Shown piece after piece: positions 1,877 through 19,632 of a stretch of 64,000 nt of DNA. The stretch's first letter is position 1; each line of letters opens with the position of its first letter. Location: positions 1 through 64,000 of the forward strand of contig NZ_JRWG01000011.1 in assembly GCF_001573155.1 (NCBI RefSeq), given 5' to 3'. The position numbers were made by a program, and so were the translations under genes. The notes below the pieces were generated by a model that worked only from the letters and a program-made list of their open reading frames with translations, was not told the origin of the DNA and ran no database searches. Source of the stretch: Aequorivita aquimaris. GTDB lineage: Bacteria; Bacteroidota; Bacteroidia; Flavobacteriales; Flavobacteriaceae.

Positions 1877-4800
1877 TTATAAATTGTTAACATTAGCCAT
1901 CCGCTTCATAGTATCAAAAAATGCTTGATAAAATGTTGGGTCTTTGGCATACAGTCTGTATAAATCCAATTCCTGCTTTCGTTGTTTGGACATTACATCA
2001 TCCAAGATTCTTCGGAAGGCCAAATCTTTATTTTGCTCATCAGTATTATCTGCTACTTTGGTTTGAAAGTCGGGATGTGCTTGTATGGATTTCGTTAGAC
2101 TAATAAACTTAACTCGTTGGTCTTCTGGCGTTGCTTCCCAACCCTGAAACCATCTTTCATTAAACGATTTTATAATTAATTCTAGAGGATCTTTGTTTTC
2201 ATCACCTCCATGAGCTCCACGCGGATTTGGATTTTGTGGGTCAACTTCAGTTTCTGCATCATCCAAACCAATACTGTGATTTAATTTTACACGTTCCAAA
2301 CCATAGGTTGAAAGGTCTACAGAATTAAGGAGTTCATCCAAAGCATCAATATCTGGATCTTTGACTGGAAGTTTTGGAATAAGAAATTTTAAAAACCAAA
2401 ATAACTTCTCCCACTGGAGAACTTCAAATGGCAATATAGATGCCATTTGCCCATAAATCTTTACAAACTGCTTTGCCTTAATTTTAAAATCTGCCTTTTC
2501 ATCATCTTCCAATTCTAGTTGATTTTTAAACCGTTCCGCAGCAACATCTATTATAGGGCTTAACAATTGTGCATCTACCTTATTAAAAAACAAGGAATTA
2601 AAGTCTTCCACTTCTTGCCATTCATAAACCCCAACTTCTTCCAGTACACTCTTCAATTCGTGGAGCACATTTACATCGGTGGCTTGGCTTAATGATGTAG
2701 CTGTATAAAATGGATCGAAAGAGTCTTTAATATCCTCAGTTGAGTTAAAAAAATCAAGTATGAAAAGGTCTTCCGTTTTCTTGCCAAATTTATCAGCAGC
2801 TCTATTTAAGCGTGATAAGGCTTGAACCGCAAGCACTCCTTGTAGTTTCTTATCCACATACATAGCACAAAGCTTCGGTTGATCAAATCCTGTAAGATAC
2901 TTATTGGCCACCACAAGCATTCTGTAGTCATCTTCGTTAAATTTATCACGGGTATCTTTTTCGGCAAAGCCATTCATTTCGGCTTCTGTATATTCTATGC
3001 CGTCCACTTTTTTAGTTCCAGAAAACGCAATGGCTATTTTAAAAGGATTGCCTTTATCTTCCAAAACACTTTTTAAAGCTTTGTAATACCTTATGGCAGA
3101 CTCAATACTTTGGGTAATGACCATTGCCTTTGCTTTTCCCTTTAGTCGTTTCTTGTTTACGATTTGAGGAATAAAGTGGTCAAGGATAATTTCCCCTTTA
3201 GTCTGTATGGTTTGTTGATGTTGCTCCACAAAGGCACGTAATTTCTTTTGTGCTTTCTTGGTATCGAACAACGGATTTTCCTCAATGGATTTTTCTATTT
3301 CGTAATAACTTCTAAGTGTAGTATAGTTTGCCAAAACGTCTAGAATAAAACCTTCTTCAATGGCCTGTTTCATGGAGTACAAATGGAAGGGCTTAAAGCT
3401 ATCGTCTTCTTGTTTTACTCCAAATTTTTCAAGCGTAATAGGTTTAGGAGTTGCAGTAAATGCCATATAAGAAGCATTTCCCCGCATTTTTCGCGCCTGC
3501 ATTGCCCTTACTATTTTATCCTGAACCTCAGTTTCATCTTCTTCTTCCGATTGTTGCCCCATGGCTTGGTTCATTTTATCGTGGGCAGAACCGCTTTGGC
3601 TACTATGTGCTTCATCTATAATTACAGCAAACCGCTTGTCACTCAAATCGGCTATTCCGTCTATGATAAACGGAAACTTTTGGATAGTGGTGATAATAAT
3701 TTTCTTTCCCTGCTCCAAGGCATCCCTTAACTCTTTGGAAGAGTAAGCAGGGGCAATAATATTTTTAACTTCCGAAAACTCCTTAATGTTCTCCCGAAGC
3801 TGTTTGTCAAGCAAACGTCTATCAGTAACCACTATCACCGAATCAAATAAAGGATGTTCCATTCCTTTACTGCCTGCTGTGCTTTCGTTTTCTGGATAGG
3901 CTTCAATTAATTGATAAGCTGCCCACGTAATGGAATTAGATTTACCAGAACCTGCGGAATGCTGTATTAAATAGGTCTGTCCTACTCCATTTTTGCTTGC
4001 GTGATTTATAATGCCACGCACCACATCCATTTGATGATAACGTGGAAAAAAGAGTGTACGTGAACCTAAAGCATCCTTTTTACTACCATCCAAACGCACA
4101 AAATGTTGCAAAATGTTAGCGAGGCTTTCCCTTGTAAAAACTTCTTTCCATAAATAGGCTGTTTTATGTCCAAAAGGATTGGGAGGATTACCCTTCCCGT
4201 GATTGTTTCCTTTATTAAATGGCAGGAAAAAAGTATTGTTGCCATTTAACTTTGTGGTCATATAGGCTTCATCGGTATCTACGGCAAAATGCACTACGCA
4301 ACGTGCAAATTGTAATAAGGGCTGTTTTATATCCCGTTGGGTTTTGTATTGATGTTGCCCGTGTACTTTGGCATTTTGTCCGGTCCAATGGTTTTTTAGT
4401 TCCATGGTTACAATGGGCAGCCCATTGATAAAAAGCACCATATCAATTTCTTCCCGAGAATTGTCCACCGAATAACGAAGCTGTCTGGTAACACTGAATA
4501 TATTCTTCTCAAAATTTTCTTTTACCGATTCACTACTACTTGCCATTGGCAATTGATAAAACAATGTAAAATGGGCATCGTCTACTTCTAAACCTTTTTT
4601 GAGCAAATGCAGTACACCGTATTTTTTTATCATACGGTCAAAACGATTCAGGATTTTAAGTTTCCAATCGGTTTGCTTTTGTAGTTTTTCTAACTCCTCT
4701 TTTTGAGTGCTTTGTAAAAAGTCCCAAAAAAATTGCTCGTCTATAGCAAATTGGGCATTAAAATTACTCGGTTGCCCAATGTAATAGCCTTTACCTGTTC

Positions 4801-4930: not shown

Positions 4931-7415
4931 TTAGTAATTGTTTTTTTAAAATTAACTCAATCTCTATTAACAACTTATCAAGTTTTATCTTAACATTGTT
5001 TACATTTTCAACTATTGATAAGCTTAAAACATCTTTATAAATAATACTTTTTTGAGGAATTACTCTAAATTCGTCATTTAGATTACCAAAATTATTAACT
5101 GTAAAAATCTTAAGTTTTTCTTCTCTTTCTGAATCCTCTCTATAAAGAATTGAATAGTGCCATTCTGTATTTTCATACTTAATATCAATAGCATAACTTT
5201 TCTCTTTATGTTCAATTTTATCATTAACTAAATCAAAATCTAAAACACACACGTTATGCTGAAACACCCACATTTTTCTATCTTTAAATAGAGATTCTAA
5301 AAGTTTGCATTGCAATTCTTTATATCCCTTATCTTTTTCAGAAATTAGAACTACACGTTGAGGACTTTCTCTTAATATTCGTTTTTTATTACAATAGTTT
5401 AAAATAGATTTATTTTCAATAAAAGCTTCTCTCCAATCCTTAGCTTTCGTTTTTTTATAATCTTCGATTATGAATTTTAAATCATTAGTCTTGTTTTCTT
5501 TTAAATTAACTAATAGTTGTGGAAGGTATTCTTTGTCATTATTAAAAATCTCGGTCATTTCTTTATTGTCACTATTATCACTATAGCCAAAAGAATAACC
5601 TTCAATTCTATTTCCTAATCGATAACTTCCATTAGTTTTTACACTATAATCACCAAAAGTTAATAATGCTCTTCTAAAAATATCTGAGTCTTTTCCATTA
5701 TTATAAACATTATATTCTTCTAATAACGAGGTTAGAGTACCATAAAACGCCTTTAGTTCTTCACAATAGGTATTATCTATTATCAGTTCACGATTTTGCT
5801 TGCTGTAAAACAATTTTACGGTTTTGAACAATATGCTAAAATCTCCTTTTAAAAAATTAGTTAGTTTTGTATTTACAGTAATTGCCCAAATAACTTCCTC
5901 TAGGTTTTGCCTGTAAATACCCGCTTTTTCATAAAGGGATAAAACCTGTCTTGTATAGCTTGTTAAATAGCTTTTAAATTTATTATCATAACCTTCATCT
6001 AAAAAACAGACAATATCTGTTTTACCTGAATCACACAGGCTTTTAACCAACTCTATTGCATCTATAGTTGCATTATCTGGATTTTTAGATATTGACAAAA
6101 AACTAGTGGTGCCATATAAAAACATTATCAAACGTTTTGTTGCTATATCTTGTTCTTGTTGGTTTATACAACTTGAATTGTTTATAAAATAAATTAGAGG
6201 TAAAATATTTATGTAATTTACTGCTCCACCCATTTCAGATAATAGTTTCTTATCTAAAGGGTTGGTTGCAAAATTTAGATTTAACAGTGATTCTAAAGCT
6301 GAAAAAGCATTTTTTAAATAAGTAGCATTTAGTTGTTTTACTTGATATGCGGCGAGAAGCTCTCTTTGTCTTTCTACCTTGGCTTTTGTTTTATTGATAT
6401 AGTTTTCTTTTGCCTCTCTTAGTGATTGGCGTTTGCCTTTTACTTCTTCAAATACCAAATGTTCTTCACTATTGGTTGTACAAATATGAAGTATAGCCCA
6501 CCATTTTAAAAACTCTTCAAAACCTATATCTGCATTCTCATTGTTACCTCTGTAAGTCCAAAAGTAATTTTGCCACTCTTCCCATTGTTTACCAACTTGT
6601 TTTTTATCGTCAAGTGTTTTTTCTTTCTTAATAATTTCAGACTTTACAATTTCTTGATGTGATAAAAACTCACCTCTACTATTCATATATAAATAGAGCT
6701 GTTCTCCTTGTTCACTTATATTGGTATCAAAATAATTTACTTCTATATATTCTTCTATATATTCTAAAAAATTATCTAAACTGTTATTTTCCTTTACAAT
6801 TGCTTCATTTTTCTCTAGAATGGTTTTTATCGTGTTGTAATTACTTATTAGGTTTACAATGGTTTCATCCTCTTCATATTCATTTTTATAATACTGATTA
6901 GATAACTTAATATCTGTAGGGTTTTCACTCAATTCATTACTAATAAAAGACCTCATAAAATTATGTGAGTTTTCTCTCACTTTATAATCTATTTTCAATA
7001 GGTTATCAGTAAAATAAAGAGTTTTAAAATCTGCAGTTTTCCCACTTTTTACATACACTGCTAATAACAATAGATACAAGGTTGTAAATCGTTGTTGACC
7101 ATCTATTAAGAAAAATTTACCTGCATATTCATTATCGTGATAGGCATAAACAAAACCAATTTTAGTATTGTACAATAAGCGACTATACTCTTTTTGCAAA
7201 TAATTGGTTATGCTTCCTTCTTCAATTTGTTGCCCATTAACCTTGAAGGATATTTGTTCTCGCTTTTTATTTTGAAAATGATTAATTATTGAATTTAATA
7301 ATTGGGTAACGTTTTTACTTTTCCATACATAATCACGCTGAATTTCTGGAATGATAATTTGCTCAATTTCATTATGAGTTAGTAACTCTTTTATGCTATA
7401 TCGTCCAGTTCTCAT
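4923..7415 (-). CDS. DUF262-domain protein embedded in the type I R-M operon
   Basis: The 830-residue product has an N-terminal DUF262 (ParB/sulfiredoxin-like) domain with the motifs IPEIQRDYVWKS (about residues 22-33) and FLIDGQQRFTTLYLL. This domain is the GmrS half of GmrSD-type modification-dependent restriction enzymes. I do not see the HNH motif of DUF1524 in the long C-terminal part, so the nuclease function may come from the neighbouring DUF262-DUF1524 protein. The gene is very AT-rich compared with hsdM and hsdR. It overlaps its upstream neighbour by 4 nt and hsdR by 8 nt. A role as an accessory restriction factor or regulator is inference from context. Confidence 0.85.
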   Translation of the reverse strand: MRTGRYSIKELLTHNEIEQIIIPEIQRDYVWKSKNVTQLLNSIINHFQNKKREQISFKVNGQQIEEGSITNYLQKEYSRLLYNTKIGFVYAYHDNEYAGKFFLIDGQQRFTTLYLLLLAVYVKSGKTADFKTLYFTDNLLKIDYKVRENSHNFMRSFISNELSENPTDIKLSNQYYKNEYEEDETIVNLISNYNTIKTILEKNEAIVKENNSLDNFLEYIEEYIEVNYFDTNISEQGEQLYLYMNSRGEFLSHQEIVKSEIIKKEKTLDDKKQVGKQWEEWQNYFWTYRGNNENADIGFEEFLKWWAILHICTTNSEEHLVFEEVKGKRQSLREAKENYINKTKAKVERQRELLAAYQVKQLNATYLKNAFSALESLLNLNFATNPLDKKLLSEMGGAVNYINILPLIYFINNSSCINQQEQDIATKRLIMFLYGTTSFLSISKNPDNATIDAIELVKSLCDSGKTDIVCFLDEGYDNKFKSYLTSYTRQVLSLYEKAGIYRQNLEEVIWAITVNTKLTNFLKGDFSILFKTVKLFYSKQNRELIIDNTYCEELKAFYGTLTSLLEEYNVYNNGKDSDIFRRALLTFGDYSVKTNGSYRLGNRIEGYSFGYSDNSDNKEMTEIFNNDKEYLPQLLVNLKENKTNDLKFIIEDYKKTKAKDWREAFIENKSILNYCNKKRILRESPQRVVLISEKDKGYKELQCKLLESLFKDRKMWVFQHNVCVLDFDLVNDKIEHKEKSYAIDIKYENTEWHYSILYREDSEREEKLKIFTVNNFGNLNDEFRVIPQKSIIYKDVLSLSIVENVNNVKIKLDKLLIEIELILKKQLLNA

Positions 7416-9307
7416 TTTACTACCTCTAATTTATTAATCATCAACTCAATATTTTCTTTAATACTTTCTAAATGTGCATTAATATCATTACTACTCCACA
7501 CAGTTAAAGAGTTGTCAAATGTAACATTTGCTTTTACTTCTAGCATTTTAGAGAATACATCTATGGTATGCTTTGGCACAAAACTGCCTGCATTAATTTT
7601 GCGTAATAATATTTTGCGTTTGGTATTAAAAAAACCATTGCTCAAAGCGCTATTAACACCACTTGATAATAAGGCCATATTACCCAAAACGTCTGCATCT
7701 TCAATCTCATCAAATAAAAAATCTATTTTAGAAGTATCTATTTCTTGGTTTGTCTGTACTTCTTGAATTAGGGCTTTATAATTATCGCGTGATGATTGAT
7801 CATCTTCTGAAACTGGTAAGTCATTTATTTTTTCTTGAATTTTCTGAATAACCCAATCCTTATCATCCTTTACATCTAAATTATTTGCATTAGGTTTTTG
7901 CGGAAAAATATGTTCTAAACTCCATTCTTCGTCTATAAAAGAATAAAAATCGAAACGATAATTTCTGAAATTTCCTTTAGTAGTATGGTTTTGAGGAAAG
8001 ACATTGATTGCTAAAAGCAAGAAAAACGTTTCCTCATATTTTTTATATCCTAGCTTCACTATATCGTCTGTCGATTTGTTTATTTTTTCTAGTACAAACT
8101 TTTGTAGGTTTTCAAGCACTTTTCCATTAGATGATTTTGACAGTAAATCTTTAATATTATTACTAAAACCTTCGCTGGATTTTGCCTTATAATTACTTAC
8201 TATTTGTTTGTAACCTATAAGGTTGTAAAATTGATTATCGTAATACCAACTTTTTAAGCGTTTATAGATATGCTCTATTTGATTAAGGTATTTTGCGGCA
8301 TCAAAAGTTGTAATTATATGCTGATGGTAAGTATTAAATAATATGTATGGAATTTTATATTGTACTGTATTATCAGAAAAAAATGCTTTGTAGTTTTGAA
8401 TAACCGATGCATCGTGATTTTCGGTATCAAAACTGACTAACTGTAGCATTTTTTCCATACCTTCTTGTGTTGTACCAAAAAAGAATAAGCTCACGTCTGG
8501 TTTAGAAAACCACGTATTCATTTCGTCCCACAGTCTGCCCATAATAGCACGTTGGTCTATTATTTCTTTGAAATGTTTTTTTGAGCTTTGGTTACTTTGT
8601 AATCGAGAGGCTTTGGTTAGCAACAAACCTTTAATTAAATAAGCATTGGTAAGCGGTACTTTATTATCGTTTAAATTAGCAAAAACCTCTTCGGCAGTGG
8701 TATGTTCGTCTTCAATATTAAGAATGAGCTTTACACTATTTTTAATATAGTTGAGAAAAGCATTAAAATTTTCTTCGCCATCTTCCTTAAGTAAATCAAA
8801 AAAGTGTTTAATGCTTAAGGCTGCTTTAAGCATATAGAACTTGTCTTGTTCTTTAAGTGACTCAGCTTCTTGATTATTGGTCATTAAATCTATTATAGTA
8901 TCAAAAATAGAAACTAACTCTTCATCGTAGCGTGCATAGGTTACCAAATACTGCTTTTTATATTTGGTGATATTTTGTTGATTAAAAAACTGCTCTAATA
9001 CACTAAAAATTAAGGTTAACGTTGTTAAACGCTGTTGGCCGTCTATAACCTCAAACTGATTTTGCGCTGTCTTTTTTACCGTAATATATTGCAAATAGTA
9101 TTCTTGCTGACTTTGGGTGGTTTGCGCTTTTATAAAAGCTTCGTAAACATCTAATAGCAATACAGGAACTTGGTCGTAAACACTATTAGATTTCCATTTA
9201 TAACCACGTTGGTACGAAGCTATATAATACCCATTTACTTTGTAATGAAATAAGCAACCACTTTTTGTGTTAAACACATCTTGTATAGAATAAATAAAAT
9301 CTTTCAT
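7412..9307 (-). CDS. DUF262-DUF1524 (GmrSD-like) predicted nuclease
   Basis: The 631-residue product has both GmrSD halves. The N-terminal DUF262 domain carries YQRGYKWKS and VIDGQQRLTTLTLIF; these DGQQR motifs are linked to nucleotide hydrolysis in the family. The C-terminal DUF1524 HNH-type domain carries WSLEHIFPQKPNANNL and the later LGNMALLSSGVNSALSN. Characterised GmrSD and BrxU proteins cut modified phage DNA. The key HNH residues appear intact, so an active nuclease is likely. It starts 1 nt after the hsdS stop and overlaps the second DUF262 gene by 4 nt (ATGA), which places it firmly inside the R-M operon. Its target is unknown. Confidence 0.9.
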   Translation of the reverse strand: MKDFIYSIQDVFNTKSGCLFHYKVNGYYIASYQRGYKWKSNSVYDQVPVLLLDVYEAFIKAQTTQSQQEYYLQYITVKKTAQNQFEVIDGQQRLTTLTLIFSVLEQFFNQQNITKYKKQYLVTYARYDEELVSIFDTIIDLMTNNQEAESLKEQDKFYMLKAALSIKHFFDLLKEDGEENFNAFLNYIKNSVKLILNIEDEHTTAEEVFANLNDNKVPLTNAYLIKGLLLTKASRLQSNQSSKKHFKEIIDQRAIMGRLWDEMNTWFSKPDVSLFFFGTTQEGMEKMLQLVSFDTENHDASVIQNYKAFFSDNTVQYKIPYILFNTYHQHIITTFDAAKYLNQIEHIYKRLKSWYYDNQFYNLIGYKQIVSNYKAKSSEGFSNNIKDLLSKSSNGKVLENLQKFVLEKINKSTDDIVKLGYKKYEETFFLLLAINVFPQNHTTKGNFRNYRFDFYSFIDEEWSLEHIFPQKPNANNLDVKDDKDWVIQKIQEKINDLPVSEDDQSSRDNYKALIQEVQTNQEIDTSKIDFLFDEIEDADVLGNMALLSSGVNSALSNGFFNTKRKILLRKINAGSFVPKHTIDVFSKMLEVKANVTFDNSLTVWSSNDINAHLESIKENIELMINKLEVVK

Positions 9308-9308
9308 A

Positions 9309-10529
9309 CTAACAAACCCTAACCTTACCCGTTACCACACTATTTATTAAACTACTTTTATACTCTTGTAGCTTGCTTATCTCTTGTTCTTTTAGGCTAA
9401 TGGCGGTTCCTATTTTAGCCGATGCCGTTTCTATATAGTTGGCGATTTCTTTTTGCTCGGAAAGTGGTGGATACGGAAATCTTTCATTTTTTATTACTCC
9501 AACAGCTATTCCTGGTTGTGCTGCTGATTGAGAAAGACGATTAAAATCAGCTACTCTAATAGTTTCACCAAGCCATAAAGTATCTTCTTCGTTTAAAGGA
9601 TAGACTACAACTGCGTGTTCTGTAGCATAAAATTTTCCTTTTGCATAATTAACGTTTCCACATAATGCTCCTTGTCTCCCAATTAAGGCATAAAATCCTT
9701 CATTAGTAAATGTTTCAGCATAAGCCCTAAATCCATTTCCACCATAAACAGGATAACCTTCCTCTTTAAAGTCATCTGACGAAATAAACTCACCGCTTTG
9801 TAGGTAACAAATAAACTTTAGAGCTTTCACCTCCCAATGCTCAGGAATCTCTCCAATCCATTCTACACCAGAGTCTTTTAGGGCAACCTTATCATTTAAA
9901 CCACGAGTGACCGCTTTGTGTATAAGGATTTGTTTGCGTTCTTTTAATAGGGCTATTTGTTGCTGTTTTATGGCAATAGCTTGGTCTATTTTGGTGGTTT
10001 TATCGTTCAGAAATTGGGCGATGGCGGATTGCTCCTCTAGAGGGGGGAATACGAACTCTGTATTTGCTATAAGGTTAAAATTTAAAGTTTGCCTCACCCC
10101 TGCACCTAAGGTTTTCATAAAGGCAACATCAAAAACATGAAGTAACCATTTATAATAATCTTTAGATAATTCAATAATATCTTGAACTATAATATAACCT
10201 GAACTTACAACAACATCTTTGTCAGATAGTGCAATTCTTAAACTAATAAGGTCATAATTTAAATTTAAAGGATTAATTAAAAACTCTCCCTTATTTAATA
10301 CTTGATAAGAACGTTTTGTAGATTCAGTTACTTTTTCATCATCCTTAAAAACTACTTTACCAAAACTAATGGAACCACAATTTAGATCAAGATTTGATGA
10401 AGCTTTCTTCTCTTTAAATATGTGTTTAAATCGTTTTAGTTCCCAATGTTCAGGAATTTCTCCCACCCATTCCACGCCTGAATCTTTATAACTTTCGTAA
10501 CGCTGTAATTGTATTTCAGTTTCTACCAT
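9309..10529 (-). CDS. hsdS: Type I R-M specificity subunit (HsdS)
   Basis: This 406-residue DNA-recognition subunit has two target-recognition domains. Each is introduced by the same motif (YKDSGVEWVGEIPEHWE near residue 14 and LKDSGVEWIGEIPEHWE near the middle), the usual two-half architecture of HsdS for a bipartite target. Conserved spacer helices follow each domain (QIALLKERKQILIHKAVTRGL and LQEYKSSLINSVVTGKV-like segments). The hsdM stop and the hsdS start overlap by one base (TAATG). Both domains look complete, so the complex should be specific. The recognition sequence cannot be read from the protein. Confidence 0.95.
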   Translation of the reverse strand: MVETEIQLQRYESYKDSGVEWVGEIPEHWELKRFKHIFKEKKASSNLDLNCGSISFGKVVFKDDEKVTESTKRSYQVLNKGEFLINPLNLNYDLISLRIALSDKDVVVSSGYIIVQDIIELSKDYYKWLLHVFDVAFMKTLGAGVRQTLNFNLIANTEFVFPPLEEQSAIAQFLNDKTTKIDQAIAIKQQQIALLKERKQILIHKAVTRGLNDKVALKDSGVEWIGEIPEHWEVKALKFICYLQSGEFISSDDFKEEGYPVYGGNGFRAYAETFTNEGFYALIGRQGALCGNVNYAKGKFYATEHAVVVYPLNEEDTLWLGETIRVADFNRLSQSAAQPGIAVGVIKNERFPYPPLSEQKEIANYIETASAKIGTAISLKEQEISKLQEYKSSLINSVVTGKVRVC

Positions 10530-12877
10530 TACGATAAGTTTAATATTTCAGCAATCAAACCATCGCTTTGACGTTCCAGTTCCATAATATCGGCAGTTAC
10601 TTCCTCAATGCTTCTCAATGGTGTATGCTTGTAGAAATATTTATTAAAGCTAATCTCGTACCCAATCTTAGTATTGTCCAGATTTATCCATGCCTCATCC
10701 ACGTGGGGCTTTACTTCCTTTAAAAAATATTCGTGAATATTTTCCTTTAAGGGTATGTTTTCGGTGTCGCGTAGGTCGCTTTCAGTTTCGTAAATTATGT
10801 ACTCCCCTTTCTTTTCTGTTGGGAAATAGCCAAAATCTGCCAATTGGTCTTCCTTGCAACCCAAATGGTGTAATAGTTTTTGAAGTTTATCGCCCGTTAG
10901 CCTTTCCTTCTTTTTAATTACTTTTTTCGCATCGGCATCATACCAGCTTACGGCATTCAATATTGCTTTTTTGTCACTGGCGCTTACCTCTTTTTTGCCT
11001 TTGAGAGCATCGCTTACCTCTTTTTCAAAATCGTTATAATTTGTAAACAGTGTGTCACCAAAAAACAATTTTTCCATATCAGAAGCCCATCTTACAAGGT
11101 TTGCATGCTTATTCCAGGTTTCCTGCTTCAATAATTTCTTTTTATTGGCTGAAGAAAGATTTAGGTCATTTTTCTCGCACCATTCCAACAGTTCCTTTTC
11201 GTGTTGCTTAATATTGCTGTAAACGCTTTCCCCAAAAGTTTCAAAGGCATACTGCATCGGCTCCTGCAAACTTTTATCATAACGCAATGTTTCTATACGC
11301 TCTGGTGTAAACTGGGCTTTTAATCGTTTTGGGCGTTCTATGGTGACTTTGTAATATCCAAAATCTTCGTTGTCAAAAACCTGTGCAGCAATTTGTTGTT
11401 CGCCATGGCTTTCCATGGCCTGCATTTCGGTATAAACCTTTACAATTTCGTCTATATGTTCTGGTGCGAACTCGCAGTTTTTGTTTCCTAAATTTTTGCG
11501 CAGTTTTCTATATAACTGTCCAGCATCAATCAGCTGTACTTTTCCTTTTCTTTGGTCGGCTTTGTTGTTGCTTAAAATCCAGATATAGGTAGTAATGCCC
11601 GTATTGTAAAAAAGATTGTTGGGCATCTGTATAATAGCTTCCAACCAATCGTTTTCAATAATATGGCGGCGTATATTGCTTTCGCCCCCGCCGGCATCAC
11701 CTGTAAAAAGGCTACTGCCATTATGCACCGAAGCAATACGGCTACCACTGGCGCTCTGGCTTAAGGGTTTCATTTTGCTAACCATTTCCATCAGGAATAG
11801 TAATTGCCCGTCTGAAGAGCGCGGGGTGGCATCAGCATCTTCTTCCACGCCCCAATAATTTTTTAGTTGTATTTTAAACCTTGGATCAATTACATCTTTA
11901 CCGTCCTTTATATATTTCTGCTCGCTGCTCCAAGATTTTCCGTAAGGCGGATTGGAGAGCATAAAGTCAAAGGTTGTTCCTGCAAATTCATCGGTTGATA
12001 AAGTAGAGCCTACACGAATGTTTGCGGGGTCATTTCCTTTTATCATCATATCACTTTTGCAGATAGCGTACGTTTCGTCGTTTATTTCCTTTCCAAAAAG
12101 ATAAACATCGCCCAAAGCTTTTATAACACCTTCTTCATCTTTAATAAAATTTTGGCTTTCGGTAAGCATTCCTCCACTACCACAGGCAGGATCATAAATG
12201 GTCATTACGGGGGGTAAATTATCTTTTATAGGATCAAAAATTATATGTGTCATTAAATCAATTACCTCTCGTGGCGTAAAGTGTTCTCCTGCTTCTTCAT
12301 TATTTTCCTCATTGAATTTTCGTATCAATTCCTCAAACACATAACCCATTCCTAAATTGGTAAGCCCTGGTAATTTTCTACCATCGGGATCTTCTTTTTC
12401 ATAAGGGGTTAAATTGATATAGGGCGATGTAAACTTTTCCAAAACATCGAGCAACACATCTTTAGTTGCCATATGCCGTACTTGGCTACGAAGTTTAAAT
12501 TTGTCTATAATTTCCTTTACGTTGGCGCTAAAACCGTTCAGATAATCTTCAAAATTGGCCTGTAAAATCTGTTGGCTGTTGGTTGCAGTATCGTGTAGCA
12601 TTTGGAGGGTCCACTTGCTGGTATTGTAAAAAACATAGTTAGAGGCTTGGCGCAAACCGTTTTCATCCCATTCGGTAAACTTGGCTTCATCGCGTTGAAA
12701 AGCTAATTCTTCCAGAACGGCTTCTTTAGTGGGTTCTAGCAAGGCATCTAATCGGCGAAGAACAACCATTGGTAAAATCACGTCACGGTACTTTCCGCGT
12801 ACGTAAACATCACGTAGGCAATCGTCAGCGATAGACCAAATGAAGGATACTAGTTTGTTGTGAGAGCTTGTATGCAT
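10529..12877 (-). CDS. hsdM: Type I R-M adenine methyltransferase subunit (HsdM)
   Basis: This 782-residue N6-adenine methyltransferase subunit protects host DNA and forms the M2S core with HsdS. The N-terminal helical domain leads into the SAM-binding motif DPACGSGGML and the catalytic motif SNPPYGKSW. The protein is longer than a classical ~500-residue HsdM because of a C-terminal extension rich in charged helices, a form I recall as common in Bacteroidota. As the first gene of the operon it would be made before the nuclease subunits, consistent with protection before restriction. A Bacteroidota -7 box lies upstream. Confidence 0.95.
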   Translation of the reverse strand: MHTSSHNKLVSFIWSIADDCLRDVYVRGKYRDVILPMVVLRRLDALLEPTKEAVLEELAFQRDEAKFTEWDENGLRQASNYVFYNTSKWTLQMLHDTATNSQQILQANFEDYLNGFSANVKEIIDKFKLRSQVRHMATKDVLLDVLEKFTSPYINLTPYEKEDPDGRKLPGLTNLGMGYVFEELIRKFNEENNEEAGEHFTPREVIDLMTHIIFDPIKDNLPPVMTIYDPACGSGGMLTESQNFIKDEEGVIKALGDVYLFGKEINDETYAICKSDMMIKGNDPANIRVGSTLSTDEFAGTTFDFMLSNPPYGKSWSSEQKYIKDGKDVIDPRFKIQLKNYWGVEEDADATPRSSDGQLLFLMEMVSKMKPLSQSASGSRIASVHNGSSLFTGDAGGGESNIRRHIIENDWLEAIIQMPNNLFYNTGITTYIWILSNNKADQRKGKVQLIDAGQLYRKLRKNLGNKNCEFAPEHIDEIVKVYTEMQAMESHGEQQIAAQVFDNEDFGYYKVTIERPKRLKAQFTPERIETLRYDKSLQEPMQYAFETFGESVYSNIKQHEKELLEWCEKNDLNLSSANKKKLLKQETWNKHANLVRWASDMEKLFFGDTLFTNYNDFEKEVSDALKGKKEVSASDKKAILNAVSWYDADAKKVIKKKERLTGDKLQKLLHHLGCKEDQLADFGYFPTEKKGEYIIYETESDLRDTENIPLKENIHEYFLKEVKPHVDEAWINLDNTKIGYEISFNKYFYKHTPLRSIEEVTADIMELERQSDGLIAEILNLS

Positions 12878-12903
12878 AAAATGGAGTTATTTTCTGTTTT
12901 CTT

Positions 12904-12945
12904 CAAATATAAAACAATATAAATCCATCCCACTACGGAATTCCG
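12904..12945 (-). promoter_or_regulatory. Promoter region of the hsd operon with palindrome
   Basis: On the minus strand TATATTTG (12911-12904) matches the -7 consensus TAnnTTTG, 27 nt before the hsdM start. A perfect palindrome CGGAATTCCG (12936-12945) lies where the -33 element would be and could be an operator. No R-M controller (C protein) gene is visible nearby. Confidence 0.45.
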
Positions 12946-13067
12946 CAACTGGAACAAATTAAAAGGGGAGAAAAGTAAAGATATTAAAATTTAAAGTACC
13001 ACAATCAAAAAATTGCCTTGTTTAAAAAGCGCCCCTACCTAAAGCAGTTTTATCTCGCGTTTAAGGT

Positions 13068-13109
13068 GGGTTTACTTCGGGTTTATTTCGGGTTTATTTC
13101 GGGTTTGGG
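13068..13109. repeat. 11-bp tandem repeat next to the corA stop
   Basis: The unit GGGTTTATTTC occurs about 3.8 times in a row (the first copy has GGGTTTACTTC) and ends directly at the corA stop codon. It is non-coding and of unknown role. Confidence 0.8.
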
Positions 13110-14198
13110 TTACAACCACTTCTTCCGCTTAAAATACCACAGCAAACCAAAAAACACCAAAATCATCGCTCCCCAAAGGTAGTAATAGCCGTATCTAAAG
13201 TGCAGTTCGGGCATATGGTCAAAATTCATCCCGTAAATCCCCGCCATAAAGGTTAAGGGAATAAAGATGGAAGCCATAATGGTAAGCACCTTCATCACCT
13301 CGTTCATTTTGTTGCTAATGGTGGTCATATACATATCCATCAGCCCCCAAATCATCTCCCGGTATATCTCAACACTTTCGTTTACTTGAATAATGTGGTC
13401 ATATAAATCACGAATGTATTTATTCGTCCGCTCTTCAATAAGTGTCGATTCAATTTTTTCCAGTCGGTTTACAACCTCACGCAAGGGCACTACAGCTTTT
13501 CTGATTCTGAGAATTTCCTTTTTCAGATCCTGTATTTCCTCTGTAATATCAGGGTCTTCCTTATCGTCAAAGAGTTTGTCCTCAAGTAGTTCTACCTTAT
13601 TGCTCAAAAATTCCACTACGGTAAAATAATTATCCACTACGGCATCCAGAATGGCAAACATCAAATAATCCGAGCCCAGCCCTCGAACCCTACCCTTTCC
13701 GTGCTCCAAGCGCTCCCGCAGATCCCCAAAAATATCGCCTTCCGCTTCCTGAAAAGTAATAACATAATCCTTGCCCACTACCATGCTTAGGTGTTCTGAA
13801 GTAAGCTGTTCGCTATCGTCGTAATGCAGCATTTTGAATACGATAAAAAAATAGTCTTCGTACTCATCAATCTTGGGCCGTTGGTTGGTGGTAACAATGT
13901 CTTCCTGTATAAGCGGGTGCAATTCAAAGTGGTTCCCCAGCGTAACAATATCATCGGTATTGCTAAGCCCGTTTACATTGATCCAAGTAATGTTTGTGGA
14001 GTCTTCGTAGTTAAAGGCTTCCTGTATGTTATTTGTCTCAAAGCGTTGAAAATGTTCCTTCGAGTAATCTATAATGTCCAGTTCCGTGACCGTAGTGGTT
14101 TTTTTTCCGGTATAGGCAACCGTACCTGGCGAAAGGTTTTTTGCTCTTTTGGGTTGTATTTTGGTGGTTTGCGGTTTCTTTCTTCTTCGTGCAGCCAT
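13110..14198 (-). CDS. corA: CorA-family magnesium/cobalt transporter
   Basis: The 362-residue product is a CorA-type divalent cation channel of the inner membrane, which works as a pentamer. A long cytosolic domain with extended helices is followed by two C-terminal membrane segments. The signature YGMNFDHMPEL sits after the first (ASIFIPLTFMAGIYGMN), and the basic tail KRKKWL ends the protein. A basic N-terminal stretch (AARRRKKPQ) precedes the domain. It lies 43 bp downstream of the his-operon scar on the same strand with no visible terminator between, so transcription from the his leader may reach it. Confidence 0.95.
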   Translation of the reverse strand: MAARRRKKPQTTKIQPKRAKNLSPGTVAYTGKKTTTVTELDIIDYSKEHFQRFETNNIQEAFNYEDSTNITWINVNGLSNTDDIVTLGNHFELHPLIQEDIVTTNQRPKIDEYEDYFFIVFKMLHYDDSEQLTSEHLSMVVGKDYVITFQEAEGDIFGDLRERLEHGKGRVRGLGSDYLMFAILDAVVDNYFTVVEFLSNKVELLEDKLFDDKEDPDITEEIQDLKKEILRIRKAVVPLREVVNRLEKIESTLIEERTNKYIRDLYDHIIQVNESVEIYREMIWGLMDMYMTTISNKMNEVMKVLTIMASIFIPLTFMAGIYGMNFDHMPELHFRYGYYYLWGAMILVFFGLLWYFKRKKWL

Positions 14199-14241
14199 AA
14201 AAAATTGATTATTTTTTTAAAGGTAGGAAAAAGTAAAAAGA

Positions 14242-14367
14242 TTATTCCAATTTATGGCGCTGCCGAAGTATTTTCTCCACATCCTGAAGCGTAAAGCCCT
14301 TTAGCAATGCCAGTGATTCGTCGAGAAATCGCCCAGATTTTTGTACTGCTATTTTTAATTTCTTCAT
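14242..14367 (-). pseudogene. hisG'-'hisIE fusion scar of a deleted histidine operon
   Basis: The 41-codon ORF starts with KLKIAVQKSGR and SLALLK, which match the N-terminus of ATP phosphoribosyltransferase HisG (E. coli has LRIAMQKSGRLSDDS). It ends with FTLQDVEKILRQRHK, which matches the C-terminus of HisIE (phosphoribosyl-ATP pyrophosphatase; the family ends in patterns like LxDVxxxLxxRH). hisG is the first and hisIE the last gene of the usual Bacteroidota his operon. This looks like one in-frame deletion of everything between, perhaps through the shared LLK-coding stretch. Neither fragment can be catalytic. The his leader and attenuator directly upstream strongly support the reading. Confidence 0.85.
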
Positions 14368-14396
14368 TATAATTTTTTCTTTTAGTTGGATTGGGG

Positions 14397-14433
14397 AAAT
14401 AAAAAAACCCGTTTGATTGCTCAAACGGGTTTT
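14397..14433 (-). terminator. his attenuator terminator hairpin
   Basis: On the minus strand AAAACCCGTTTG pairs perfectly with CAAACGGGTTTT around a 6-nt loop, and the T run continues TTTATTT. It lies between the His-rich leader peptide and the hisG start, the position of a transcription attenuator. A second hairpin upstream (14460-14466 with 14489-14495, CCATATC/GATATGG on the minus strand) overlaps the His codons and could be the 1:2 pause hairpin. I did not work out an antiterminator pairing. Confidence 0.85.
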
Positions 14434-14464
14434 CGAATATAGTCGAATTTACACAATAGCCATA

Positions 14465-14521
14465 TCACCTCGCGAGCGCGTGGAAAAGGATATGGTGATG
14501 ATGTAAAAATGAATTGTTCAT
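14465..14521 (-). CDS. hisL: Histidine operon leader peptide
   Basis: This 18-codon ORF reads MNNSFLHHHHILFHALAR and stops with TGA. Five of the 18 codons are His, four in a row, the hallmark of his leader peptides (E. coli HisL has seven in a row). Ribosome stalling at these codons when charged tRNA-His is scarce would change leader folding and prevent the terminator downstream. It is positioned correctly, 97 nt before the hisG start codon. The biosynthetic genes it once controlled are gone, so it is an orphan regulator unless it now controls corA. Confidence 0.88.
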   Translation of the reverse strand: MNNSFLHHHHILFHALAR

Positions 14522-14657
14522 AAATGTGAGGATAAATCTAAACAAAAAGATTGTTTATTAAACTGTGAATATAAAATTTAACGCTTTATTAATTTTAGGT
14601 GCAATTTCTTTACTTTCACGCAAGCAATTATAAACTGCTGAAAAACCGAGACCTTTT

Positions 14658-16388
14658 ATGCATTTAGAAACACTTGATTGGGTAATTATAGTTTCATTTT
14701 TTATCGTTTTTATCGCAATCGGCCTGCTGGTTGCCAAAAAATCGGGCAAAGACTCCAAATCATTTTTTCTCTCCAATAGAAATATGCCGTGGTGGCTGCT
14801 GGGCGTAAGTATGGTGGCTACTACGTTTGCGGCAGATACGCCCAATTTTGTCGCTGGTGTAATCCGTGAAGACGGTGTTTTTGGAAACTGGATTTGGTGG
14901 AGTTTTCTTTTAACTGGAATGCTGACCGTTTTTTTCTACGCCAAACTGTGGCGCAGAAGCGGAATAACCACAGACTTAGAGTTCTATGAATTACGCTATA
15001 GCGGAAAAAGCGCTGCTTTCTTAAGAGGATTCCGAGCCATATATCTTGGCGTTTTCTTCAACATTGTAATTATGGCAAATGTTTGCTTGGCCGCAATTAA
15101 AATTGGTCATGTAATGTTTGGGCTTTCTTCTATTGAAGTATTATTGATTGCTTCTCCGGTAGTCGTTATTTATTCGGCTTTTGGCGGATTGAAAGGGGTT
15201 TTGCTTACGGATTTTGTACAATTTATAATTGCGATGGTCGGGAGCATTTGGGCAACCATTTTCATTGTAAATATGCCAGAAATTGGCGGGATTGAGAACC
15301 TGCTCTCCACTCCTGCCGTTGCTGCAAAAACTGCAATGCTTCCCGATTTTTCAAAACCTGAGTTATTGATTCCGTTACTTATAATTCCGCTTGCCGTGCA
15401 ATGGTGGAGCGTGTGGTATCCCGGCGCCGAACCTGGTGGTGGCGGCTATATTGCACAGAGAATGCTCGCTGCAAAAGATGAAAAACACGCAACTTGGGCA
15501 ACGCTATTCTTCAACTTTGCGCATTATGCACTTCGTCCTTGGCCTTGGATTATTATTGGGTTGGCGTCTATTATTATTTATCCAAATATTGAAAGTTTGC
15601 AAGCTGCCTTTCCTAATTTGAATCCTGCCTTTGTTAAAAACGATTTATCGTATCCCGCGATGCTCACTTTTTTACCCGCTGGTTTGTTGGGAATTGTAAT
15701 TACATCGCTCATTGCTGCTTTTATGAGTACAATCTCAACACATTTAAATTGGGGAAGCTCGTATGTGGTTAATGATTTTTATGTACGTTTTCTTAGGAAA
15801 GAAGCCACAGGTAAAGAACAGGTTGCCGTTGGAAGAATTTCCACCGTTGTAATGATGCTTTTTGCTGGCATATTGGCATTTTATTTAGAAGAAGCGCGTG
15901 ATGGTTTTAACTTGCTCTTGTCTATTGGAGCTGGTACAGGTTTACTGTTTATTTTAAGATGGTTTTGGAGTAGGATCAACCCGTATAGTGAAATAGCCGC
16001 GATGCTAATTTCGTTTATAATAGCAACCTTCTTTTTTATAAATGGAAAATTGGAAACTCCAATGATTGAAATGGCAGGCCATTGGCAATTGGTTTTAAGC
16101 GTGGCGATAACAACTATTGGTTGGGTGATTGTAACTCTAATGACACAACCTTCAAATGCAGAAACATTAAACAGTTTCAACAGTCTTATTTTTGGAAAAG
16201 AATCCAAATTCAAAGGGTTTGGAATGAAAATCCTCGGGTTCTTTGCAGGTGTAGTTGGAGTTTATTGTTCTTTATTTGCTATTGGGAACTTTATTTATAG
16301 CAACATTCTTTTGGCTTTTGGTTTAACTGCAGTGGCCGTGATTTGCGGCTTGGTGATTATTAAATCTTTTCAAAAAACCGATTCGTAA
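14658..16388 (+). CDS. Sodium:solute symporter (SSS family)
   Basis: The 576-residue multi-spanning inner-membrane protein has the SSS fold: hydrophobic segments from residue 8 (WVIIVSFFIVFIAIGLLVA) through to the C-terminus, with SFFLSNRNMPWWLLGVSMVATTFA in the region following TM1. That motif is typical of Na+-coupled sugar, amino acid or carboxylate symporters. The substrate cannot be told from sequence. It is transcribed away from the his leader, and 136 bp separate the two starts. No enzyme gene that could hint at a substrate lies beside it. Confidence 0.85.
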   Translation: MHLETLDWVIIVSFFIVFIAIGLLVAKKSGKDSKSFFLSNRNMPWWLLGVSMVATTFAADTPNFVAGVIREDGVFGNWIWWSFLLTGMLTVFFYAKLWRRSGITTDLEFYELRYSGKSAAFLRGFRAIYLGVFFNIVIMANVCLAAIKIGHVMFGLSSIEVLLIASPVVVIYSAFGGLKGVLLTDFVQFIIAMVGSIWATIFIVNMPEIGGIENLLSTPAVAAKTAMLPDFSKPELLIPLLIIPLAVQWWSVWYPGAEPGGGGYIAQRMLAAKDEKHATWATLFFNFAHYALRPWPWIIIGLASIIIYPNIESLQAAFPNLNPAFVKNDLSYPAMLTFLPAGLLGIVITSLIAAFMSTISTHLNWGSSYVVNDFYVRFLRKEATGKEQVAVGRISTVVMMLFAGILAFYLEEARDGFNLLLSIGAGTGLLFILRWFWSRINPYSEIAAMLISFIIATFFFINGKLETPMIEMAGHWQLVLSVAITTIGWVIVTLMTQPSNAETLNSFNSLIFGKESKFKGFGMKILGFFAGVVGVYCSLFAIGNFIYSNILLAFGLTAVAVICGLVIIKSFQKTDS

Positions 16389-16501
16389 CTGGTACTGGAA
16401 ACATTTGTTCTATAGTTTGAAACATACGTAATATTCAAAATTGCACAATAGTCTTAATATTGCACTGAAACATGTCATTTTAGACTAAAAATTTATCGAA
16501 T

Positions 16502-16651
16502 ATGAAAACTAAAATATTATTTATCTTATTATTGTTTGTTTCAGTTTTTGTTACAAGTTGTGAGGAAGAAGATGCGAGAGAAAGTTGTGTAGAACTTGGA
16601 TGTCAGTGGTACTTACCTGCTGGAGAAGACGAGTGGATTTGTAATTGCTAA
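16502..16651 (+). CDS. Small cysteine-rich lipoprotein
   Basis: This 49-residue ORF has a clear lipoprotein signal: MKTK, a hydrophobic core (ILFILLLFVSVF), then VTSC with Cys20 as the lipidated residue, followed by acidic EEED. The mature part has four more cysteines (29, 34, 47, 49), the last in a C-terminal CNC, which suggests disulphides or metal binding. No family is recognised. It stands alone downstream of the symporter gene. The signal peptide and absence of in-frame stops support it as real despite the short length. Confidence 0.65.
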   Translation: MKTKILFILLLFVSVFVTSCEEEDARESCVELGCQWYLPAGEDEWICNC

Positions 16652-16757
16652 AACTTCAATACTTAAATATGGAAGACCAAGCATTGTTTTACCAATAGAA
16701 TATATTCCTCGAGATTTACTTTCTGTTGCAATATTACATTTGCTACTAAAAATTACA

Positions 16758-17573
16758 TCAATTATTCCCTAAAATCAAAGGCAAACCACTGTCGCCAGAA
16801 CCAACTACTACAACTTTAGCATTAGGTGATTTTGCAAGTTCAAGAGTTGCGTCAATTCCTTTATCTTGAAGGATTTTATCTGTTAATGAAGCACTTAAAA
16901 TAGCATTTGCATCCGCTTTTCCTTGGGCTTCAATTCTAACTTTTTGAGCTTCTTTATCAGCGGTTACCAGTCTAAACTCATATTCCAAAGATTCTTGTTC
17001 CTGCTTCAGTTTTCTTTCGATCGCATCTTTAATTGTTGGCGGTAGGGTTACATCACGCACCAAAATTTCATTTAATTGTACGTATTGTTTGTCAAGAATT
17101 TTTTTGGTTTCCTCAAAAATTTCTTCTTGAATTGCATCTCGCTTGGTAGAGTACAATTGTTCGGGCGTATAACGACCTACAACACTTCTTGCCGCACTTC
17201 TGATGGCTGGCTGAATAACACGTTGCAAATAATCTTCTCCTTTTTCTTGGTGTAACTTGGCAACATCACTGTAAATGGGTTGATACCAAGCAGAAGCATC
17301 CAATTTAATTTCAAGTCCGTTGCTGGATAGTACCTGCATTTTTTCACTAAGTTCTTGTTGGCGTACTTCATAAACGAAAACCTTATTCCAAGGCGCAATA
17401 ATATGAAAACCTTCGCCAAGCGGCGGTTCATCGGTAACCACACCGTTTCCAAAAGTTTGATATAGCACACCTGCGTGACCGGAGTCAATAGTAACCGAAG
17501 ATTTTGATACTAAAATTATCAGCAAAATAATTCCTACGATGACGGGTATTGTGAGTTTGGGTAATTTTTCCAT
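16758..17573 (-). CDS. Prohibitin/SPFH-domain membrane protein
   Basis: The 271-residue product has one N-terminal membrane anchor (about residues 9-26, IPVIVGIILLIILVSKSS) and an SPFH/Band-7 domain (GHAGVLYQTFG ... LGEGFHIIAPWNKVFVYEVR) followed by a helical region rich in Q, E and K. Such proteins form large rings or scaffolds in membranes and associate with proteases. The C-terminus (LPLILGNN) is typical of bacterial prohibitin homologues. It lies 25 bp downstream of the VWA-type gene and is probably co-transcribed with it. Confidence 0.9.
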   Translation of the reverse strand: MEKLPKLTIPVIVGIILLIILVSKSSVTIDSGHAGVLYQTFGNGVVTDEPPLGEGFHIIAPWNKVFVYEVRQQELSEKMQVLSSNGLEIKLDASAWYQPIYSDVAKLHQEKGEDYLQRVIQPAIRSAARSVVGRYTPEQLYSTKRDAIQEEIFEETKKILDKQYVQLNEILVRDVTLPPTIKDAIERKLKQEQESLEYEFRLVTADKEAQKVRIEAQGKADANAILSASLTDKILQDKGIDATLELAKSPNAKVVVVGSGDSGLPLILGNN

Positions 17574-17598
17574 TGTATATTTTTATATGGGTTAATTT

Positions 17599-19632
17599 TT
17601 AGATGAGTCCGTTATATTTTCTTATAAACCATTCTGCTGCGAGGGCGAGAACGATAAGGGCGAGAAGATATTTCCAATCCACCAAAGGTACCACTTTTTG
17701 TTCGCTTCGTTCAATGTTTTGGTAGTTAGTATTTTCAACCAGCGCATTGATCAGTAAATCGCCATGCGTTGCAAAAAATGCCTTTCCGTTCGTATTTTGG
17801 GCAATGCGGCGGAGTTTAGGCACATCGGCATTGAGAAATTGCTGCTCTACATTAAAATCCAAAATGGTGAATTTGCCACTGCTTGAAACCGCTTCGTTTG
17901 AAACCGAAACCGTATAATTGTATTCCCCCGCGGGAAGGCTGTTTAAATCTACCTCGTAATAATTGTTTCGCAGCAGCATCGGGAAAACGGTCTGTTTTTC
18001 CGTCTCGGTATTTTTTACTGAAATATTCAATGAGGCACGATTGTCAAAAACATAATTTTTATCAAAATACTGGGCAGAAATTTTTATTGGATTATTGTTA
18101 TAGTAAAATGTTTCCGAAGAGACTTCCAACCTGCTTCGGCGTTTGTTTGAAGCCAAATATTGAACAAGGTTTCCTATGAAATCGTCAAAACTTTGAAAAC
18201 TTTCGGTTTCCAAAAAACTTCGTGCGCGCCAACGCCAAAAACCTTCACCATCCCAGATTGCATCACGCTTTCCGTTTATTTCCGTTGTGGCGAGCAAAGG
18301 GTTTCCATTATCGATTCCGCTCACGGTCTGTGCCAGCATCACTTCATTTGGAACGCTGATGGTCAACGCGCCAAATTCTGTATGCAAAGGCGGAAAATTA
18401 TCGAATCCAATATTTTCCACGGCAAATGTGCCATAGTTACCATTCAATTCAGCTTGGATGTCTTCACTGGCGTTGGAAGCTTCTTTGTTGAAATTGTCCT
18501 GCGCGCCATTTAAAAAATACCAATCCGTTTGCAGGCCCGAAATGGTCCAAGTGTTTTTATTCAACTTTTCAATTTCAGCAAAAACCGAAGCGAAACTTCT
18601 GTCCGGTTGATACAAGATTACCAGCTGAAAATCATTTAAAACGCTCACGGCCTCCGCAGGTTTTTTAAATGTAACCGTCCGGCGTTCGTTGGATGTAATC
18701 GCTTTTTTTAGTGCGCCCAAATCGGGGTGGGTAATTTTGCTCACGACCAAAACGTTGGTGGCTTGGTCAATCACTTCCACAGCAAACTGTTTGCTGTTGT
18801 TGGTTTTGTTCTTCTCATCGGCCAGCGGCAGGATTTGCGCGCTGTATTTTTGGAGTCCGACGCTGGAGGCATTTAAGGTGAAGTTTAGGGTTTTTGATGT
18901 TTCATTTTCCGAAAAGGAGACGTTGGTTCTATAAACCGTCGCCGCGCCTTGGGCAACTGCAAATTCAGAATTTACGGGGCTTGTCCCGCTATACGTTAAA
19001 ATGACTTCAACGGGAAATTGGTTTTTTAGGAATGCGTACCGGTTTGTGTTTAGTTGTTCAATCTTTAGGTCGGTGTATTGTATGGAATCGCCCAGAATGA
19101 CCGGATAAATCGGGTTTTTAAACGTAGCCGAAGAAAATTCGTAATCGTTGCCGAGGGTTTGGTTTCCGTCGGTTATGACGATTGTGGGTGCCGTTTGGTT
19201 TTTGAAAAGTTCATTGGCCGAAGTCAGTGCTTTGGAAATGTTGGTGTTCTTTTCATCAAAAGAAAGGGAATCGCTTTCGCGGAAATCATTTCCGAAGGAA
19301 TAATAGGAAACATCAAATTTATCGTTGAGTTCGTTATTCTCTTTCAGTTTTTGAAGGAATGCTGAAACGTTTTCCTTTTGACCCAACTCCCCTATTGAAG
19401 CCGAATTATCAATAAGCACGGGAAGTTTCGGTTTTTCAATGGTATAGGTTTCACTTTTGAATTTTGGGTTGATAATCAAAAGCAGAATTGAAAATAAGGT
19501 TATAAACCGAAGAATCCCAAACACCCATCGCAGCGAACCAGTTTGTTTTGACCTATAGCCATACATAAAAACCGCCAGAGCGATTGATACTACTCCGGCG
19601 AGGACTATGTAAAGTATGGTTTCTGGAGACAT
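17599..19632 (-). CDS. Membrane protein with VWA-like domain
   Basis: The 677-residue protein starts with two membrane segments (ILYIVLAGVVSIALAVFMYGY and FGILRFITLFSILLLII) and ends with a third near the C-terminus (YLLALIVLALAAEWFIRKY). The segment after TM2, PVLIDNSASIG, resembles the DxSxS metal-binding motif of von Willebrand A domains, with TIVITDGNQT as the later strand. The middle part looks like Ig/BatA-type periplasmic domains. Similar proteins occur widely in Bacteroidota with no assigned function; binding or envelope assembly is inference. Confidence 0.75.
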   Translation of the reverse strand: MSPETILYIVLAGVVSIALAVFMYGYRSKQTGSLRWVFGILRFITLFSILLLIINPKFKSETYTIEKPKLPVLIDNSASIGELGQKENVSAFLQKLKENNELNDKFDVSYYSFGNDFRESDSLSFDEKNTNISKALTSANELFKNQTAPTIVITDGNQTLGNDYEFSSATFKNPIYPVILGDSIQYTDLKIEQLNTNRYAFLKNQFPVEVILTYSGTSPVNSEFAVAQGAATVYRTNVSFSENETSKTLNFTLNASSVGLQKYSAQILPLADEKNKTNNSKQFAVEVIDQATNVLVVSKITHPDLGALKKAITSNERRTVTFKKPAEAVSVLNDFQLVILYQPDRSFASVFAEIEKLNKNTWTISGLQTDWYFLNGAQDNFNKEASNASEDIQAELNGNYGTFAVENIGFDNFPPLHTEFGALTISVPNEVMLAQTVSGIDNGNPLLATTEINGKRDAIWDGEGFWRWRARSFLETESFQSFDDFIGNLVQYLASNKRRSRLEVSSETFYYNNNPIKISAQYFDKNYVFDNRASLNISVKNTETEKQTVFPMLLRNNYYEVDLNSLPAGEYNYTVSVSNEAVSSSGKFTILDFNVEQQFLNADVPKLRRIAQNTNGKAFFATHGDLLINALVENTNYQNIERSEQKVVPLVDWKYLLALIVLALAAEWFIRKYNGLI

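Follow-up and report, generated by a model that had tools for sequence, protein, structure and literature searches.

The locus considered here raises a simple question: why does a histidine leader peptide with its attenuator stand in front of an open reading frame of only 41 codons instead of a his operon? The locus lies in a window of 64,000 nucleotides from Aequorivita aquimaris (positions 1 to 64,000 of contig NZ_JRWG01000011.1, assembly GCF_001573155.1, forward strand), and unless stated otherwise all coordinates refer to this window, whose genome is called G000. The initial annotation, made from the letters of the DNA, had proposed that a single in-frame deletion removed the middle of a his operon and spared its regulatory leader. 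After comparison with relatives we are highly confident that about 7.8 kb of the his operon were recently deleted here and that the locus is the resulting scar, with the leader left in place. In all likelihood this is gene loss of an ordinary kind, at a stage early enough to be readable.

The remnant itself, a hybrid hisG'-'hisIE reading frame, occupies positions 14242–14367 on the minus strand. Its start at 14367 is an ATG at the start position of hisG, whereas the list of open reading frames begins it at an upstream TTG. It had been described as beginning like HisG and ending like HisIE, and both halves indeed align: in a tblastn search against 105 sequences the remnant matches residues 1–23 of HisG of relatives (best E 1.5e-7) as well as the C-terminus of their HisIE (best E 1.4e-6). 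The HisG-derived part has to be corrected to an end at about residue 22–23, and the lysine at the joint is common to both genes. The hisG stub (14303–14367, minus strand) accordingly covers approximately residues 1–22 of HisG, and the hisIE stub (14242–14302, minus strand) holds the last 17–18 residues of HisIE together with the stop codon. Over these final 61 bases the remnant matches the 3' end of hisIE of the sister genome G026 without a single difference (0/61), and the 43 bases downstream of the remnant are likewise identical to G026 (0 differences). One detail of the first half deviates, since residues 14–15 of the remnant read FL and all 17 genus-mates that have retained the his genes (his+) read LH at this place. 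This represents either two substitutions or the trace of a more complex exchange. The FL of the remnant (14323–14328) equals the FL that precedes N/D-E-S in HisIE.

An open frame with its start codon at the position of hisG might suggest that the 41 residues form a functional small protein, and the differences of its hisG half from G026 are, in the alignment, mostly synonymous. Differences that accumulated in a still intact hisG would, however, be expected to show this pattern too. Furthermore, the 41 residues have no Pfam match at E values up to 0.01, the HisG domain (PF01634) included, no similar hybrid frame was found in the other corA and hisG loci of the genus, and the product would be far shorter than HisG or HisIE. 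We therefore regard a functional small protein as very improbable, and the peptide probably has no function.

That the two halves belonged to one operon becomes visible in the sister species. In G026 (locus L160) eight operon reading frames, named hisG to hisIE from their order and sequence, extend from 10302 to 18230, and corA begins at 18277. The undeleted operon is thus found between the same flanks that enclose the remnant in the window. The upstream flank, divergent from the his leader, is a gene for a sodium:solute symporter of the SSF type (14658–16388, plus strand; Pfam PF00474, E 1.2e-34), and a symporter of this type adjoins hisG in 17/17 his+ genus-mates, with 93–99% identity in 12 of them and 68–69% in five. 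Downstream follows corA (13110–14198, minus strand; PF01544, E 6.7e-74), and hisIE stands directly before corA in 16 of the 17 his+ relatives, the exception being G021. As to the alternative that a sister species might carry the same short frame beside an unrelated, complete his operon, no such genome was found among them. From the end of hisA (16162) to the beginning of the HisF match (16880), the operon of G026 holds about 0.7 kb (approximately 16163–16880) with an open frame of repeated RRSYL-like residues, which seems to be a repeat-rich spacer inside the operon.

The deletion joint can be located precisely. Aligned by blastn to G026, the window falls into two blocks, 14298–16383 (G026 10362–8285) and 13111–14302 (G026 19364–18173), which overlap by five bases and leave out approximately 7815 bases of G026. 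The overlap, at 14298–14302 on the minus strand, is a microhomology of 5 bp, AAAGG in the coding strand, common to hisG and hisIE. On the hisG side G026 reads CAAGGA, so that in this genome only four bases are shared, and G011 and G002 read AAAGGA. If the ancestral hisG had CTC, as in G026, instead of CTA before the joint, the microhomology would measure 4 bp. The deletion extended from hisG codon 22/23 to the last 17–18 codons of hisIE, and illegitimate recombination at the short AAAGG repeat is the most likely route. The two gene ends share one frame by chance. In the initial annotation a deletion as clean as this one was considered unusual; one joint in three would be in frame by chance, and its cleanness is therefore no evidence of anything.

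Since the joint sits at a repeat and one assembly, without reads, was available, it has to be considered whether a false contig join could have produced it while the operon is really present elsewhere. A repeat of 5 bp is too short for the usual false join in an assembly. Moreover, a false join would have left the operon on other contigs, and hisG, hisD, PRA-CH (hisI) and IGPD (hisB) are found on none of the 65 contigs (0/65), which makes an assembly artefact highly implausible. The genome (3.15 Mb) is 99.97% complete.

The genome-wide search, which covered hisG, hisD, PRA-CH, IGPD and the HisA/HisF family, thereby answers a question that had been raised with the first reading, namely whether his genes persist elsewhere. 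In G000 no match to hisG (PF01634) was obtained at E values up to 0.001, and hisD, the PRA-CH domain of hisI and the IGPD domain of hisB are found nowhere in this genome. For the HisA/HisF family only matches with E 1.2e-7 and 3.9e-4 are present, similar to the background matches of his+ genomes, in each of which the best copy scores between 3e-80 and 4e-84. Within the genus hisG is present in 17/28 genomes (16/25 of the good ones) and missing from 11/28, and hisD (PF00815) and PRA-CH (PF01502) are each found in 17/28, in the same 17 genomes as hisG. IGPD (PF00475) is present in 16/28; G013 is the his+ genome that lacks it, which is taken as an assembly gap because the operon of G013 spans two contig ends. 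Based on the absence of the searched enzymes, histidine auxotrophy is predicted, and the organism would need external histidine. At the same time, the histidine ammonia-lyase family (PF00221), a family that also takes in other aromatic lyases, is present in 28/28 genomes of the genus and in two copies in G000, which can probably degrade histidine though it is predicted to need it. These results agree with the available part of a study of the genus, where histidine degradation is complete in all 16 Aequorivita species and the histidine synthesis module M00026 is not annotated in five named species of the 16 (PMC10608841).

When did the operon disappear? On a tree of the rpoB region, made with a quick method for 27/28 genomes (G017 being without a match), G000 groups with the his+ genome G026 (SH-aLRT 99, 98% identity), and the his-minus label requires at least six changes. 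Since the sister keeps its operon, G000 must have lost its copy independently and recently, and the deletion happened in the lineage of the window species after the split from G026. The recency is also reflected in the sequences left behind, with 2/121 differences from G026 in the leader and 0/61 in the hisIE stub. G013, with a CorA of about 98% identity, had been considered as the nearest genome, and was ruled out in favor of G026 by the tree and the flanks.

Ten other genomes of the genus are without hisG, two of which, G016 and G017, are less than 90% complete. In eight of the ten (G005, G009, G012, G015, G016, G019, G024 and G027) the interval between symporter and corA is readable and measures 156–259 bp between the ends of the BLAST matches. 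None of these eight intervals contains a match to the 41 residues of the remnant. Furthermore, none of the ten loss genomes has a match to the leader covariance model in its corA locus (E values up to 1e-5), although the loci of G004 and G017 say little here, because they are without the symporter. What distinguishes the scar, known from one genome, is therefore its stage: leader and stubs are gone in the eight other readable loss genomes. The site in the window is predicted to decay to the same short gap between symporter and corA.

A plain deletion in an ancestor like G026 does not explain everything. The intergenic region between symporter and leader (14523–14640), which presumably contains the his promoter, shows 1/118 differences from G026 and likewise from G023, and the leader region that follows (14522–14402) shows the 2/121 given above. 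The next stretch, in contrast, has 15/34 differences at 14401–14368 (of which 8 are gap columns) and 7/65 at 14367–14303. Taken together, the tract 14303–14401 (minus strand), which comprises the spacer between leader and hisG and the hisG stub, carries 22/99 differences compared to 3/343 in its surroundings (3/239 on the leader side and 0/104 beyond the joint; Fisher p 9e-13). With the gap columns dropped the tract still shows 14/91 (p 5e-8). These statistics suggest that the joint marks the end of a stretch with a different origin. Because 99 bases are unlike the sister, an exchange with other DNA was probably involved as well, either preceding the deletion or accompanying it. Of the proposed single in-frame deletion, the frame stands and the single event remains the simplest reading, while the border with this tract speaks against taking it as the whole account.

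A different account of the deletion builds on the tract. Here, incoming DNA of a related lineage would itself have made the deletion, by homologous pairing at the strongly conserved leader and terminator on one side and illegitimate joining at AAAGG in hisIE on the other, and the 99 bp up to the joint would be the imported piece. The sharp divergence of 14401–14303 between nearly identical flanks, as well as its end at the joint, would fit such an event, and the spacer between leader and hisG is nearest to G006, G014 and G013 (5 mismatches and 4 gap columns each). Homology-facilitated illegitimate recombination, as described in the available part of PMC3240628, combines a homologous exchange on one side with an illegitimate joint on the opposite side and would give the mosaic seen; no donor was found, and the tract has no exact match among the 17 loci compared. 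A single donor is disfavored as well, since the hisG stub is nearest to G023 and G026 (6 and 7 mismatches) and not to G006, G014 and G013 (10, 10 and 11). In addition, an earlier import of a hisG allele followed by a later plain deletion would look alike, and imports seem to be frequent here because corA is also mosaic. A deletion caused by the import itself is thus a possibility to be kept in mind, to which we give limited credence.

Under the preferred reading, the recombination at AAAGG would have spared both gene ends and, before them, the region of the promoter, the leader peptide with its His codons and the terminator of the attenuator. The leader peptide ORF (MNNSFLHHHHILFHALAR; 14465–14521, minus strand) contains four consecutive His codons plus one more, as the initial annotation had noticed, and its peptide is identical in G026. 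A leader peptide of the same plan precedes the intact hisG in 17/17 his+ genus-mates: four His codons in a row are present in 13 of the 17, the other four hold three of those positions, and in all 17 the peptide ends with A-R before the stop codon. Such a conserved His leader element is present at 14396–14521 of the window and before hisG across the Flavobacteriaceae.

The peptide is followed and partly overlapped by three helices on the minus strand. Helix 1 (14460–14495) pairs the last His codons (14495–14489) with GATATGG (14466–14460), over and past the stop codon. Helix 2 (14438–14458) pairs TATTGT (14458–14453) with ACAATA in the relatives, which reads ACTATA here (14443–14438). The third is the intrinsic terminator, the attenuator hairpin (14403–14434), with 14 pairs and then a T run. 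A terminator scan of 14000–14800 found one site, and shuffled sequences give 0.8 sites (sd 1.0), so that the scan alone proves little. The hairpin, which had already been recognized together with its T run, is nevertheless held to be real because it is kept in all aligned relatives. In the aligned rows 99.5% of the cells of the terminator are paired, counted over 13 pairs, and for helix 1 the value is 99.2% in 17 distinct rows, with no pair changed on both sides. Overall, about 99% of the cells of the three helices are paired, compared to 36–50% if the whole structure is slid by 1–3 columns. Covariation neither supports nor refutes the helices, since no two-sided change of a pair is present and shuffles score equally.

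Has this orphan leader started to decay? The stretch from leader to terminator contains 81 columns that are invariant in the 17 relatives, and the window departs at one of them, 14441 A to T. This change breaks a pair of helix 2 that is kept in all 17 relatives (16 other distinct rows). If the relatives are left out singly, each of them departs at 0 to 2 invariant columns; the single change at 14441 is therefore by itself no evidence of decay. The window leader reaches 152.8 bits with the leader covariance model, a score which is no independent test because the window is one of the 18 rows of the model.

In its plan, a short ORF with a run of His codons followed by an intrinsic terminator before hisG, the element resembles the enterobacterial hisL-type leader with ribosome-mediated attenuation, which we take to be the Rfam family His_leader. 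The locus differs from hisL in that the operon is gone, no antiterminator that overlaps the 5' arm of the terminator was found, and no Rfam family reaches its gathering score. Helix 2 ends before this arm, and successive consensus folds, each omitting more of the 5' part, yielded no overlapping antiterminator. Attenuation by stalling at the His codons, which would lead to read-through, is thus proposed by analogy to the known type. The leader would still be transcribed, and its terminator would still stop the transcripts. A search of 14000–14800 against Rfam 15 returned no family at gathering score. Its seven matches at E values up to 1, all below threshold, belong to families taken as unrelated.

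The retained leader invites the further question of whether it has found a new use. The start of corA is 43 bases past the end of the remnant, with no terminator-like site between. No other complete gene now stands between corA and the his leader, whose peptide and terminator are intact. If histidine were low, transcripts from the his promoter could pass the attenuator into corA; the deletion would then have made the His attenuator a control element of a magnesium transporter, with transcription rising when the auxotroph is short of histidine. Several observations speak against this. The motif TACCTTT, found within 80 bases before corA in 16/17 his+ genomes and in 7/8 readable loss genomes, is read as the promoter of corA itself, so that the his leader would control this gene in part at most. 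Also, corA already followed hisIE before the deletion, the change at 14441 is unique at a column invariant in the relatives and breaks a pair, and too little time has passed since the deletion for conservation to reveal selection. We consider this rewiring unlikely. If true, it would be a simple route by which an amino-acid switch gains a new target after the loss of its operon.

The surroundings of corA have a history of their own. The gene is mosaic, its protein having 97.5% identity to that of G013 and 92.8% to that of G026. The bases before corA match G026, the sister on the rpoB-region tree, while the CorA protein (13113–14198) has its closest counterpart in G013. Similarity to G026, G023 and G013 does not continue past the end of corA (approximately 13102–13116). 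Beyond it, at 7412–12877, the window contains type I restriction genes (HsdM, HsdS) and a GmrSD-type endonuclease.

The leader is not restricted to the genus. In an even sample of 299 Flavobacteriaceae genomes from a larger group, the leader covariance model matches 253/299 at E values up to 1e-3, a count that includes chance and opposite-strand matches (37–41 bits), and hisG is present in 250 of the same 299. For 50 genomes paired by hand among the matches listed, the leader lies 153–304 bases before the HisG match on the same strand. In six genomes hisG is present without a match to the leader (G030, G041, G074, G091, G230 and G264). Conversely, weak leader matches (E 9.0e-4 to 1.9e-5) occur without hisG in G032, G115, G131, G142, G148, G288 and G297. 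These may only be terminators, because the opposite strand of true leaders scores 37–41 bits.

One genome of another Flavobacteriaceae genus, G298, deserves particular attention. It is not among the 250 genomes with hisG and has a leader at 55.2 bits (locus L172, G298:C43:199000-206000, positions 3099–3233, minus strand) with leader and terminator intact. Behind the terminator, residues 1–32 of HisG are fused to the C-terminal part of HisA, with an internal stop, followed by HisF in two frames; no match to hisIE is present in the 7 kb fetched at this locus. G079, a member of that genus, shares the leader peptide of G298 and carries hisG to hisH in the 8 kb fetched. As in the window, leader and terminator were kept and the N-terminus of hisG was joined to a later his gene, but the joint is hisG'-'hisA in G298 and hisG'-'hisIE in the window. 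A deletion that spares the leader has therefore occurred at least twice.

Events of this kind have been described before, and that the genus has lost the pathway is partly published. In its available part, PMC10608841 names species in which the module is not annotated, not sites; scars, leader and joint do not occur there. As to the leader, the available text of PMC9413887 places attenuators in Proteobacteria and some Firmicutes, and the string 'Bacteroid' never occurs in it. According to the accessible portion of PMC2965389 (2010), amino-acid leader peptides outside Proteobacteria and Actinobacteria were not known before its own. Among the open-licence papers listed, none dealing with a his leader of Bacteroidota or Flavobacteria was found, nor were the scar, the joint, the second case or the breadth of the leader met there.

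The scar catches the loss of a pathway at an early step. Since the genus offers the intact operon, a fresh scar and complete losses between the same two genes, the order of decay becomes readable. The His leader is widespread in the Flavobacteriaceae, without a family in Rfam 15 at cut-off at the locus of the window. Together, A. aquimaris and G298 represent two natural cases for studying this leader without its operon.
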